Virus record (IMG/VR): IMGVR_UViG_3300035698_007355
Coordinates: 1-64,000 of that record
DNA from: a virus
Strand: one strand, 5' to 3'
Length of the DNA stretch: 64,000 nucleotides
Part shown: in pieces, positions 1-53,100 of the stretch
How positions within the stretch are numbered: position 1 is the stretch's first letter
How the letters are laid out: each line of letters starts with the position of its first letter
The notes under the pieces: generated by a model
The model's database searches: none
Seen by the model: only the letters and a program-made list of their open reading frames with translations
Told to the model about the DNA's origin: nothing
Translations under genes and position numbers: made by a program

Positions 1-1
1 A

Positions 2-124
2 GATAGTAGACATTTTGATACCATTAAGTCTGTAAAGTTGTCTAATATTAAAGAAGACGTTTGGGATATTACAGTGTATGATGACACACATTGTTTTCAA
101 TGTGATTATGTTATAACTGGAAAC
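2..124 (+). other. C-terminal end of intein 1 in the ribonucleotide reductase
   Basis: The first 41 codons do not resemble reductase. They end in a typical intein C-terminal block (VYDDTHCF, then VITGN) directly before the catalytic cysteine of the extein (nt 125-127). The splice residue is Asn and the +1 residue is the radical-forming Cys itself. The penultimate residue is Gly rather than the usual His. The rest of this intein, including any endonuclease domain, is outside the window. Confidence 0.85.
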
Positions 125-2023
125 TGTCTCGAACAAACTTTAGAACCATATGAATTGTGCTGTGTAACAGGAGATACTAGAATACAAACGAGAAATGGAA
201 TTCCTAAAATTGAAGATACTCTTGGAAAAGAAGTAGAAATATGGAACGGAGACAATTGGTCAAAAGTAAAACCATTTCATACTGGAATGAGACCAATATA
301 TAGAGTAGAATTAAGTGATGGAAGTCATTTAGATGTAACCAGTAACCATGAATGGTCTGTTAAAAAACCAACAGAAAGAACATTTAAAAAGAAAACAACT
401 ATGGAATTAGAACCTGGTATGTATCTTCCAGAATTTGAATTGAAATTAGATAACAATGGTATAGATGAATTAAATGCTTATTCGATAGGATGGTTCACTG
501 GAGATGGTTATATGGATAAGAATAGACCTTTAGTAGTCGTTCAACAACCAGAGTATGAAAAAGTATTGCCAGTACTTAAAGGAATACAATATAAAGAACA
601 ACATCCTTGGAATTATAAGAAACCATTTAGAAGAGTTTCTATGGTTGGTATAGTTAGTGAAAAGTTAGGAAAAGAACTTAGAAATTATGATATTGGTTTA
701 CCAGAAGAAATATTTAAATATAATAGAGAAAGTATTAAGGATTTCTTTGGTGGTTGGATAGATGCGGATGGTCATTTAGGTAGACAAGAAAATACGGATA
801 GTTATAGATTGTTTGGTTCAGAAAAAAAACTTAGAGACGCACAATTGCTTATGAGAAAAATTGGAATTAATCATTCTACTCTATCATTGATGTCTCCAAA
901 AGGATTTAAAACAAATAAAGGAATTAGAAATCACGACCTATATTGTTTATTAATACCTAGTTACGAATCTCAATTCATAAATACCGAATTAAAAGTTGCT
1001 GAAAGATTTGGAAGTAGATATAGAAGAAACAACGCACATAAACAAAGTGAAATGATAGATTCTGCTAGAAAACAAAAAATAGTTAGAGTGTTAATAACAC
1101 CAAGAATGGAAGAAACATATTGTTTTGAAGAACCAAAAAAACATATGGGCGTATTTGGAAACGTATTAACTTATCAATGTTTAGTTGAGACTTATCCAAG
1201 TAAACACGAATCATTAGAAGAATGGCAAGAAACATTGAAGTATGCATATTTATATGCTAAAACAATAACTCTTATGTCAACTCATAATTCCTTAACTAAT
1301 GCGGTGATGTTACGTAATAAGCGTATCGGATGCAGTATTAGTGGAATAACACAAGCATTTACTAAGTTCGGTCGCAGGGACTTTCTAGATGCTTGTGAAG
1401 TTGGCTACGATAAGATACAAAATTGGGATAAAGTATATTCAGATTGGTTATGTGTGCCTCGTAGTATTAAAACTACAAGTATTAAACCATCAGGAACTGT
1501 TAGTCTATTAGGCGGAGTTACTCCTGGAATACATTATCCTATAAGTGAATATTATATTAGAAACGTTAGATTTCAAGAAGGTAGTCCATTGCTTGTTAAA
1601 TTAAAAGACGCTGGTTACAAGATTGAAAAAGATAAATATTCCTTACATACGTTTGTTGTGAGTTTCCCTGTCAAGGAAGAATACTTTGATAGAGGAATAA
1701 ATGATGTGACTATGTGGGAACAACTTGAAAACACTGCACAAGTTCAAAAGTCTTGGGCAGATAATCAAGTAAGTGTTACTATTAGTTTCGATGAAACTGA
1801 AGGTAAACAAATTGTAAAAGCATTGGAATTGTATGAGACTCGATTAAAGGGTGTATCTTTCTTACCAAAGAGAGACCATGGTTATAAACAAGCACCATAT
1901 ATTCCAATAACAAAAGAACAGTATGAAAAAGAAAGTGCTAAAGTAACAACATTGAAATTAAAAGAAGACGTTCACGACCAAACAGAAAAGTTCTGTGATG
2001 GAACTAGTTGTGAAATTAAATAA
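2..2023 (+). CDS. nrdJ: Adenosylcobalamin-dependent ribonucleotide reductase (class II), 5' partial, with inteins
   Basis: This is the C-terminal part of a class II ribonucleotide reductase, which makes deoxynucleotides using adenosylcobalamin. The frame is open from the left window edge, so the N-terminal part lies outside. The exteins resemble the monomeric Lactobacillus-type enzyme: a Cys-Leu-Glu followed eleven residues later by Cys (nt 125-160) matches the C408/E410/C419 active-site loop, then comes the block RIGCSISGI, the KPSGTVSLLGG loop near nt 1487, and a C-terminal redox pair CDGTSC (nt 1993-2010). Two inteins interrupt it, one ending at nt 124 and one at nt 161-1177. The gene heads a plus-strand run of small genes. 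Viral reductases supply dNTPs for replication. The family is clear; the substrate level (NTP rather than NDP) is inferred from family resemblance. Confidence 0.93.
   Translation, partial: DSRHFDTIKSVKLSNIKEDVWDITVYDDTHCFQCDYVITGNCLEQTLEPYELCCVTGDTRIQTRNGIPKIEDTLGKEVEIWNGDNWSKVKPFHTGMRPIYRVELSDGSHLDVTSNHEWSVKKPTERTFKKKTTMELEPGMYLPEFELKLDNNGIDELNAYSIGWFTGDGYMDKNRPLVVVQQPEYEKVLPVLKGIQYKEQHPWNYKKPFRRVSMVGIVSEKLGKELRNYDIGLPEEIFKYNRESIKDFFGGWIDADGHLGRQENTDSYRLFGSEKKLRDAQLLMRKIGINHSTLSLMSPKGFKTNKGIRNHDLYCLLIPSYESQFINTELKVAERFGSRYRRNNAHKQSEMIDSARKQKIVRVLITPRMEETYCFEEPKKHMGVFGNVLTYQCLVETYPSKHESLEEWQETLKYAYLYAKTITLMSTHNSLTNAVMLRNKRIGCSISGITQAFTKFGRRDFLDACEVGYDKIQNWDKVYSDWLCVPRSIKTTSIKPSGTVSLLGGVTPGIHYPISEYYIRNVRFQEGSPLLVKLKDAGYKIEKDKYSLHTFVVSFPVKEEYFDRGINDVTMWEQLENTAQVQKSWADNQVSVTISFDETEGKQIVKALELYETRLKGVSFLPKRDHGYKQAPYIPITKEQYEKESAKVTTLKLKEDVHDQTEKFCDGTSCEIK
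161..1177 (+). other. Intein 2 in the ribonucleotide reductase, with LAGLIDADG endonuclease
   Basis: This is a 339-residue in-frame insertion that begins with Cys (CVTGDTRIQT, splicing block A), has a block B TSNHEW near residue 60, and carries two dodecapeptide endonuclease motifs (GWFTGDGYMD near nt 490 and GGWIDADGHLG near nt 750). It ends in VLTYQ before a +1 Cys that resumes the extein at CLVETYP. The last two residues are Tyr-Gln instead of His-Asn, a non-canonical but known type of splice end. It sits right after the C419-equivalent cysteine, so it should have to splice out for activity. The acidic residues of both dodecapeptides are present, suggesting the homing endonuclease could be active. 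Confidence 0.93.
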
Positions 2024-42433: not shown

Positions 42434-44497
42434 ATGGAGAATGTTATAATTACTGGTGTGGGTCAAGATGGTTATTATTTAAGTATTAAATTACTTGAGA
42501 AAGGTTATAAAGTTATTGGTATTGACCAATGGCAACATAAAGGTTATAATGATAACTACAAAGAATTAATGGAACATAAGAATTTCAAATTAATAGAAGG
42601 AAGTATTACTGATAGATATTTAATGAAACGAATTATAAAAGAATATCAACCTAAATATTTTTTTAATACAGCAGCTATTAGTCATGTAGCAGTATCATTT
42701 GATATTCCAGAATTAACTTTCGATACAAATACTATAGCACCTTTAAACATATTAGAAGAATTGAGACATAATAGTCCTCATACTAGTTTTCTTCAATGTT
42801 CTACAAGTGAACAATATGGAGATTTTGAAGAAACTCCTCAATCAGAAGAAACTAAAATGATGCCTAATAGTCCTTATGCGATTGCTAAAGCAGCTACTTT
42901 CTTTATGGTTAAACTTTATAGAAAATATGGATTAAAAACATATAATACAATATGCTTTAATCACGAATCAATACCAAAAGAATCATCTATAACATTAAAA
43001 CATAATAATAGATTACAAATAATACCAATTTGTGATTTATTTTATAAGCGCGGAGATAGATTTAGAGGATTTAATAAAAAATATATTGGGTCACAAGTAT
43101 GGGACGGTGATAAATGGACTAAAATAATTGATGGTACTTGTTATCAAAAGAAAAATAAACCTATGAAACTTATTCAAACCAGAGATGCTTGTTATGAGTC
43201 TACACTTGAACATAAAACATTTTTAAATGATAATTCAGAAATAAATACTGAAGATGTTAAAAAAGGCGATGTGGTATATGAAACATTTGACCCAATTATA
43301 AAAGAATATGAAACTATAGATAAAGATTTAGCATACGCTATTGGATTTATAGTAGGCGATGGATATGTTTCTAAATCTGGTTATATAAGATTAACTGGAT
43401 GTGATAAAAAAGAAATAACAAAAATTGCGAATATTATCAAAAATAAATTTGGATGGTCTTATAGAACTTATAATTCCGGACCAGGAAATTGGGAAAATTG
43501 TGTAAATGATGTATATCAAATCGATTTTAATAATGATGTAAATTTTGGATTATGGTTACGAAATTCAATATATTCAAAAAATACAAATAAAAAAATTGTT
43601 CCAGAATACATATTAAATGGAAATACCGATATTAAGTTAGGATTTTTTAAAGGGTATTATTTAGCAGATGGAAGAAAAACTGGTAATGAAACATATGAAT
43701 TTAAAGGATTTACTACAAATTCTCAAGCCCTATGTATGGGGTTAAATCACATTTGTAAATTAGTATTAAATCAAATACCAAAAACTAAATGTGTTATAAA
43801 AGGAGATAAAAGATATTATTATACACAATTAAGAAATACTAATACAAACCTAGGGAAAGGCGCTATTAAAAAACTAAATGAAGTAATATCTATAAAAAAT
43901 ACTAAAAATCCAGATAATTGGTTTTTTGATATTCAAACAGAATCAAAAGCATTTGTAACTGGACCAAATACTTTTAAAGTTCATAACAGTGAAATTAGAC
44001 CTGATAATTTTGTTACAAGAAAAATTACAAAGACTCTAGCTGAAATGATGGTTGGTAAAGCAGATAAACTAACTTTAGGAAATATGGATGCAAAAAGAGA
44101 TTGGGGATATGCTCCAGACTTTATCGATGGTATGATTACTATTATGGAGTCAGACGAGCCAGATGATTACGTTTTAGCTACAGGCGAGACACATACTGTT
44201 AGAGAATTTGTAGAAGCAGCTATTAAAGCACTTGGTCTAGATATTGTTTGGGAAGGAACTGGCGTTAATGAGAAGGGCTCGATTTTAGCAAGAGACCAAA
44301 ACGGAAATCCTATAATAATCAAGAAAGATGCAGTAGTTGTAAACAAAGATTTTTATAGACCAGCAGAAGTAAATGTCTTATTAGGAGACCCTACTAAGAT
44401 AAAAGAAAAATTAGGTTGGGAACCAACAACTAAATTTACAGAACTAGTTGCTAAAATGGTTAAGAATGACTTATTATTATGTGAGGAACAAAAATGA
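42434..44497 (+). CDS. GDP-mannose 4,6-dehydratase-like enzyme with intein
   Basis: This 687-residue precursor is a short-chain dehydrogenase of the GDP-mannose 4,6-dehydratase type, interrupted by a 340-residue intein. The host protein shows TGVGQDGYYL (residues 7-16), CSTSEQYG (122-129), the catalytic pair Tyr148/Lys152 in SPYAIAKAA and the substrate loop FNHES-EIRPDNFVTRKI across the splice junction, a hallmark of the GMD family. The enzyme would make GDP-4-keto-6-deoxymannose. The C-terminal segment with RDQNGNPIIIKKDAVVVNKDFYRPAEVNVLLGDP is GMD-like. It is part of a sugar-nucleotide cluster. Confidence 0.88.
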   Translation: MENVIITGVGQDGYYLSIKLLEKGYKVIGIDQWQHKGYNDNYKELMEHKNFKLIEGSITDRYLMKRIIKEYQPKYFFNTAAISHVAVSFDIPELTFDTNTIAPLNILEELRHNSPHTSFLQCSTSEQYGDFEETPQSEETKMMPNSPYAIAKAATFFMVKLYRKYGLKTYNTICFNHESIPKESSITLKHNNRLQIIPICDLFYKRGDRFRGFNKKYIGSQVWDGDKWTKIIDGTCYQKKNKPMKLIQTRDACYESTLEHKTFLNDNSEINTEDVKKGDVVYETFDPIIKEYETIDKDLAYAIGFIVGDGYVSKSGYIRLTGCDKKEITKIANIIKNKFGWSYRTYNSGPGNWENCVNDVYQIDFNNDVNFGLWLRNSIYSKNTNKKIVPEYILNGNTDIKLGFFKGYYLADGRKTGNETYEFKGFTTNSQALCMGLNHICKLVLNQIPKTKCVIKGDKRYYYTQLRNTNTNLGKGAIKKLNEVISIKNTKNPDNWFFDIQTESKAFVTGPNTFKVHNSEIRPDNFVTRKITKTLAEMMVGKADKLTLGNMDAKRDWGYAPDFIDGMITIMESDEPDDYVLATGETHTVREFVEAAIKALGLDIVWEGTGVNEKGSILARDQNGNPIIIKKDAVVVNKDFYRPAEVNVLLGDPTKIKEKLGWEPTTKFTELVAKMVKNDLLLCEEQK
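42968..43987 (+). other. Intein in the GDP-mannose dehydratase, LAGLIDADG type
   Basis: This 340-residue insertion (precursor residues 179-518) starts with Ser, just after FNHE, and ends FKVHN before a +1 Ser that resumes EIRPDNF. The endonuclease motifs are AYAIGFIVGDGYV (about 300-312) and LGFFKGYYLADGR (about 402-414), and both acidic residues are kept. Ser at position 1 is used instead of Cys. The insertion sits in the conserved substrate-binding loop, so splicing is required for activity. Confidence 0.92.
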
Positions 44498-52862: not shown

Positions 52863-52936
52863 GCCCTTGTAGCATAATTGGCTAGTGCAGTTGGTTTGTA
52901 ACCAACAGGTTGTCGGTTCGACTCCGACCAAGGGCT
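52863..52936 (+). tRNA. tRNA-Thr (TGT)
   Basis: Acceptor halves GCCCTTG and CAAGGGC pair fully. The anticodon stem TTGGT/ACCAA carries the loop TTTGTAA region with anticodon TGT, and the T arm is TCGG-TTCGACT-CCGA. No CCA is encoded. A partial copy of its 5' end (TGCCCTGTAGCAT) lies just upstream at about 52849. Confidence 0.88.
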
Positions 52937-52945
52937 TTTAGTATT

Positions 52946-53020
52946 GGGGCTGTAGCATAATCCGGTTAATGTGCCTGGCTGTTGACCAGAGGATTACAGG
53001 TTCAAATCCTGTCGGCTCCG
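52946..53020 (+). tRNA. tRNA-Asn (GTT)
   Basis: The acceptor stem GGGGCTG/CGGCTCC is closed with two G-T pairs; the loop CTGTTGA has anticodon GTT; the T arm is ACAGG-TTCAAAT-CCTGT. It is nine bases after the tRNA-Thr. No CCA is encoded. Confidence 0.88.
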
Positions 53021-53026
53021 CTTTTA

Positions 53027-53100
53027 TGCGTCATTGGTGTTAACGGTAGCATCTCTGGCTTCCAACCAGATGGAGTGAGTTCAAATCTTGCATGGCGCAT
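53027..53100 (+). tRNA. tRNA-Gly (TCC)
   Basis: The acceptor stem TGCGTCA/TGGCGCA starts with a T-A pair, which is unusual for tRNA; the anticodon stem TCTGG/CCAGA holds the loop CTTCCAA with anticodon TCC. T arm has TTCAAAT. It lies six bases after the tRNA-Asn. Confidence 0.85.

Follow-up and report, generated by a model that had tools for sequence, protein, structure and literature searches.

Two LAGLIDADG inteins flank a 12-residue active-site extein in the B12-dependent ribonucleotide reductase of an uncultured virus

A viral gene for an adenosylcobalamin-dependent ribonucleoside-triphosphate reductase (RTPR) carries two inteins, inserted only 36 bp apart at the active site of the enzyme. 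It is highly probable that LAGLIDADG inteins of two lineages invaded this gene independently and stepwise, and that each of them splices. The downstream element (intein 2) would have been resident first, and the upstream element (intein 1) would have come very recently by homing, its donor being a virus similar to the relative L005 or a donor shared with it. We infer both the splicing and the order of arrival of the pair. The stepwise account is supported by the empty site of the relative L010, the open reading frame (ORF) of L005, genes occupied at a single site, a further pair in L044, the separate clades of the inteins and the conservation of splicing and LAGLIDADG residues.

The window, the 64,000 nt stretch of DNA analysed here, comprises nt 1-64000 of a linear virus record of 96,731 bp (IMGVR_UViG_3300035698_007355). 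Because genes of the record match portal, tape-measure, terminase and major head proteins and include archaeal-type replication genes (RadA, sliding clamp, family B polymerase and primase large subunit), this uncultured virus is a tailed one and probably has an archaeal host. Read in frame 2, nt 2-2023 form one open stretch that closes with a stop codon at 2021-2023 and encodes the C-terminal half of a class II (B12-dependent) ribonucleotide reductase. The C-terminal part matches TIGR02505, the profile for adenosylcobalamin-dependent ribonucleoside-triphosphate reductases, as well as the Lactobacillus leichmannii structure 1l1l. TIGR02505 matches both RTPR halves, each of which, being partial, scores under the curated whole-protein cut-off. 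The observation lies far beyond chance, with significant matches to both the RTPR profile and the intein N-terminal profile. The profile match, together with Cys119, Cys408 and Cys419 as placed by the 1l1l alignment of L010, marks the enzyme as a monomeric class II reductase. The virus also encodes a PduO-type cobalamin adenosyltransferase (contig 88433-88951; L003:5433-5951), which is supportive of the predicted B12 dependence of its RTPR.

The tail of intein 1 (...CDYVITGN) is followed in frame 2 by the extein CLEQTLEPYELC, which spans exactly the interval from the radical Cys408 to the redox Cys419 (L. leichmannii numbering, by alignment to 1l1l), and then by intein 2 (Table 1; slashes mark splice points). 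The intein-free relative L010 reads GGNP CLEQTLEPYELC CLVETYP, an exact empty site, and because it runs uninterrupted across both insertion points, these points and the 12-residue extein are exact. The RTPR sequences of L004 and L007 are likewise uninterrupted. An earlier note on this DNA had proposed that two inteins bracket a 12-residue active-site extein, intein 1 ending before the radical cysteine and intein 2 starting after the second redox cysteine. The empty site and the mapping onto 1l1l confirm its coordinates, with Cys408 as the first and Cys419 as the last extein residue. That reading did not register that the gene holds four or more inteins, that intein 1 was transferred recently, or that the invasion would have been sequential and not joint.

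Table 1. Coordinates of the reductase features (window positions unless another contig is named)
Feature	Position	Strand	Remarks
Tract 100% identical to L005, 127 nt	1..127		last codon is the +1 Cys, directly after the splice junction
Intein 1 tail (site C, NP/C408), C-terminal 41 residues, blocks F and G, ends VITGN	2..124	+	100% DNA-identical to the L005 intein end
12-residue extein CLEQTLEPYELC	125..160	+	1l1l numbering; identical peptide unbroken in L010
Cys408 codon: radical Cys and +1 nucleophile of intein 1	125-127	+	
Cys419 codon: redox Cys and -1 residue of intein 2	158-160	+	
Intein 2 (site D, C419/C), 339 aa, Cys1 to C-terminal Gln (CVTGDTRIQ...VLTYQ)	161..1177	+	TIGR01445 above cut-off; alignment with three other site-D inteins; fold matches
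First LAGLIDADG motif of intein 2, SIGWFTGDGY	482..511	+	sequence; Asp115 invariant in four site-D inteins
Second LAGLIDADG motif of intein 2, FFGGWIDADG	743..772	+	PF14528 match under gathering score; Asp203 invariant in four site-D inteins
Downstream splice junction VLTYQ/C	1163..1180	+	C-terminal Gln invariant in four site-D inteins
RTPR C-extein, cysteine-bearing C-terminal tail (CDGTSC) and stop	1178..2023	+	TIGR02505, 1l1l
Site-A intein, window virus	contig 95273-96160		directly before Cys119
Further intein, first 121 nt only			after NVRR; contig stops inside
Complete copy of intein 1, 353 aa	L005:3880-4938		

Nucleotides 161-1177 match the intein N-terminal profile above cut-off and the LAGLIDADG profile under its gathering score. 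Two LAGLIDADG motifs with acidic residues occur in intein 2 (GWFTGDG and GGWIDADG) and in the L005 copy of intein 1 (GWLTGDG and GLFSADG), and for both inteins we infer endonuclease activity. AlphaFold gave a weak model for intein 2 (pLDDT 55.5); in Foldseek, this model best matches the TliVMA and PI-SceI inteins and I-DmoI, and a sequence search of the PDB gave a marginal match only. A pattern scan of viral contigs seeded on intein 2 alone found no relatives.

The window contig holds only the last 41 residues of intein 1, and a full copy was seen only in L005 (IMGVR_UViG_3300025661_000373). There, the RTPR lies in a single 2020-aa ORF with four inteins at sites A, B, C and D (321, 355, 353 and 342 aa), of which C and D constitute the pair of the window. 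The exteins amount to about 650 residues in pieces of 119, 181, 56, 12 and 281, and 68% of the precursor is intein. Intein C begins NP/SLRAGTKIL, and the Pfam Intein_splicing model matches it over positions 15 to 149 of 155. Since most of intein 1 is absent from the window contig, its state in that genome is read from L005. The possibility that upstream sequence would reveal a split or degenerate intein 1, named earlier as what would undo the two-intein reading, is thus answered by proxy: the L005 intein with the DNA-identical tail is intact and has both LAGLIDADG motifs, so that the nearest copy is neither split nor degenerate. The site-A intein of L005 (L005:1141-2103) starts with Pro and carries a W-C-T pattern, while that of the window virus starts with Cys; judged by these residues, the L005 copy at the Cys119 site may genuinely belong to class 3.

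Beyond the identical tract, from nt 128 on, the window and L005 share 70.5% identity over 1893 aligned bases. By part, the agreement is 124/124 in the intein 1 tail, 23/33 in the extein after Cys408, 70.2% in intein 2 and 70.8% in the C-extein. The next longest identical run measures 47 nt, and the chance of 127 consecutive matches at the identity of the flank is near 5e-20, as a naive independent-site figure. Because 127 identical nucleotides give way to roughly 70% identity just past the splice junction, intein 1 appears, from sequence divergence, to have moved very recently, and intein 2 to be older. The profile is that of a recently homed intein with almost no 3' co-conversion, and a DNA-identical intein 1 tail beside an intein 2 and an extein of about 70% identity argues for a stepwise build in which intein 1 came last. 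The 47-nt run (window 350-396) lies inside intein 2, amid 70% identity, and may reflect local recombination or constraint.

The figure of 127 also equals a maximum k that is often set in metagenome assembly, and the tract sits at the very end of the contig. An assembly chimera could account for both, the first 127 nt deriving from an L005-like virus and the window virus holding only intein 2, but we regard this as improbable. The change in identity sits just past the intein/extein junction, where a chimera formed at random would not be expected to break; an overlap of k between a de Bruijn contig end and its neighbour requires reads that cross the junction; and L005 shows this architecture without interruption, its contig extending further in both directions. 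Under the preferred reading of a genuine, recently homed intein 1, the tract is probably an assembly-break overlap, and an intein shared between viruses may break the assembly graph k bases in, which would explain the contig end. The L044 contig likewise ends inside its site-D intein, 64 nt in.

At the opposite end of the contig, nt 94892-96730 encode the N-terminal half of the RTPR, and the gene of the window virus contains at least four inteins. Given the intein tail at nt 2-124 and the intein start at the 3' end, both contig ends fall inside RTPR inteins. Direct joining of the ends was rejected, for it would create an intein of about 82 aa and lose about 90 conserved extein residues; a gap must therefore exist between them. 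A within-genome repeat was likewise rejected as the cause of the break, the 3' intein start having no second copy in the genome, and a partner for this 3' intein was not found in viral contigs. Other inteins occur in the same record. A GDP-mannose 4,6-dehydratase gene (window 42434-44497, + strand), an unusual host gene for an intein, contains a LAGLIDADG intein whose bounds are probably NHE/SIPKES...FKVHN/SEIRP. The family B DNA polymerase gene (contig 89148-92648; L003:6148-9648) carries another Gln-ended intein (CFSTDTDIM...MCWTGQ/S), at a site differing from that of the polymerase intein in the relative L004. Three neighbouring tRNA genes (Thr, Asn and Gly) lie at window 52863-53100.

Among relatives, all four states of occupancy exist at sites C and D. 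Neither site is occupied in L004, L007 and L010. Site D alone is occupied in the viral L043 and in two genes from Lokiarchaeota metagenome-assembled genomes (L046 and L048), and site C alone in MW202615 and Thermus phage G20c; L029 is likewise a single-C gene, and in L011, which is a piece of another reductase, the equivalent site holds a related intein. Both sites are filled in the window, L005 and L044. The last two were the only further cases in degenerate DNA scans of 2.9 million viral contigs, which bears out the earlier description of the arrangement as uncommon, although these matches are a lower bound because the pattern for the two-intein architecture was strict. Four genome-scan matches (L045, L047, L049 and L050) were dismissed as chance matches. 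The site-D intein of L046 is complete and 50% identical to the viral one, and a cellular-type carbon-nitrogen hydrolase gene lies nearby on its contig; an exchange of site-D inteins between virus and host is possible.

That the pair occurs together in the window, L005 and L044 might suggest that both inteins and the 12-residue extein move as a single unit. Such co-homing is extremely improbable and largely contradicted, for the intein 1 tail is identical in the window and L005 but identity is 70% in intein 2 and in the 33 nt of extein that follow Cys408, each intein is found alone, and site C of L044 holds a different lineage. A tree of 25 inteins places those of site D, four in number, in a single clade (100/100) that groups with phage NrdA inteins located before the radical cysteine (93/94), whereas L005 intein 1 groups with MW202615 (100/99), apart from the site-D clade. 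By this grouping, intein 2 is closest to neighbouring-site inteins in another enzyme class, and an origin by a 12-codon shift of target site is possible. The site-C intein of L044 belongs to the phage NrdA lineage (41% identity to PhAER-4), outside the intein 1 lineage, which indicates that at least two C/D pairs were assembled independently. The extein tree joins L005 and the intein-free L010 as sisters (80% identity, starred branch), pointing to rapid gain and loss of inteins. As this tree leaves the branching place of the window unresolved, the order of arrival is read from sequence divergence alone.

With independent, stepwise invasion as the preferred reading, both inteins would excise by class 1 protein splicing. 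The class 1 nucleophile is present as Cys1 in intein 2 and as Ser1 in the L005 copy of intein 1, residue 1 of the window's own copy lying outside the contig, and the C-terminal junctions are N/C and Q/C, respectively. Intein 1 would use Ser1, Cys408 as +1 nucleophile and Asn cyclization; intein 2 would use Cys1, Cys+1 and Gln cyclization. The two excisions would ligate GGNP to CLEQTLEPYELC and this in turn to CLVET, so that the radical and redox cysteines are restored, Cys408 serving first as +1 nucleophile and later as radical cysteine. A class 3 (WCT) mechanism was rejected for intein 2: W-C-T is present, but so is Cys1, and the Trp is Phe in L043.

In place of the penultimate His (G:6), intein 1 has Gly and intein 2 has Tyr. 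The earlier note had called both splice ends non-canonical; this holds for the penultimate Gly of intein 1, whose terminal Asn is nevertheless canonical. That both ends are exceptional is not supported, since phage reductase inteins commonly end TGN/C or TGQ/C and such endings have precedents that function (PMC4031507, PMC5050341). The penultimate His is usual but inessential, about 5% of functional inteins differing (PMC4031507). The Gly of intein 1 is common to its relatives, those of L011 and L029 also ending TGN/C, and a mycobacteriophage intein with penultimate Gly splices, its change to His leading to precursor accumulation (PMC5050341). The reductase intein of Chilo iridescent virus splices better with Gln than with Asn (PMC4031507). 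Both the GN and the Q ending are traits of the intein families, for which functional precedents exist.

C-terminal Gln and the lack of the penultimate His do slow some inteins (PMC4031507), and the intein share of the L005 precursor is large. One or both inteins might accordingly be decaying and no longer splice, the viral reductase being non-functional or replaced by that of the host. We consider this unlikely: the reading frame stays open through every intein and extein, neither the catalytic cysteines nor the C-terminal tail has been lost, site-D inteins share the C-terminal Gln, a cellular copy from Lokiarchaeota among them, and the virus has the cobalamin adenosyltransferase gene. Functional splicing remains the favoured interpretation. 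All three catalytic cysteines sit at splice junctions, Cys119 as +1 residue of intein A, Cys408 as +1 of intein C and Cys419 as -1 of intein D. It is conceivable, if speculative and rather doubtful, that these junctions gate maturation by redox state, an inactive precursor accumulating until thiol reduction activates it, so that the inteins would act as a post-translational timer of dNTP synthesis rather than as mere parasites.

The 12-residue middle extein bears two of the three catalytic cysteines; as a free peptide it would have a monoisotopic mass of 1439.63 Da. A natural two-by-two set of occupancy states, along with an intein whose visible tail is DNA-identical in two viruses with flanking DNA of about 70% identity, renders directly testable in viruses whether neighbouring inteins help or hinder each other in homing. 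The case also suggests that metagenome assemblies can break where inteins have been exchanged very recently, so that viral intein loads may be under-counted.

Very few phage reductase inteins had been reported by 2013 (PMC3653736). The class I NrdA inteins of Vibrio phage ICP1, Aeromonas PhAER-4, Rheinheimera Barba and Corynebacterium Cruella are full-length relatives of intein 2 at 24-30% identity and share with it LAGLIDADG motifs, Cys1 and a Cys at F:4, most of them ending TGQ/C or TGN/C. They are inserted at SNL/C before the radical cysteine, whereas intein 2 follows the redox cysteine, 12 residues further downstream, and its enzyme belongs to class II. The RTPR intein of MW202615 (Caudoviricetes sp., Manatee Spring) has the same NP/C site, Ser1 and TGN/C end as intein 1 and is 37% identical to it over the full length, but it is a single intein, unaccompanied at site D. 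Haloarchaeal MCM likewise holds two LAGLIDADG inteins, MCM-a and MCM-d, in one essential gene; these neighbouring active inteins home singly, without evidence of co-homing (PMC10643990). That pair differs in its gene, its cellular host and its sites in the MCM helicase domain, yet the window fits the same single-homing rule, as intein 1 moved without taking intein 2 along. Four inteins in one gene are also known from the Trichodesmium reductase (Liu 2003, cited in PMC1635734), which is bacterial and has group II introns. Documented close pairs in Thermococcus kodakarensis DNA polymerase and Pyrococcus abyssi CDC21 also have short middle exteins, but of 85 and 48 aa (PMC8966425) against 12 aa here, and among the pairs whose spacing was compared, the one in the window is the tightest that we found.
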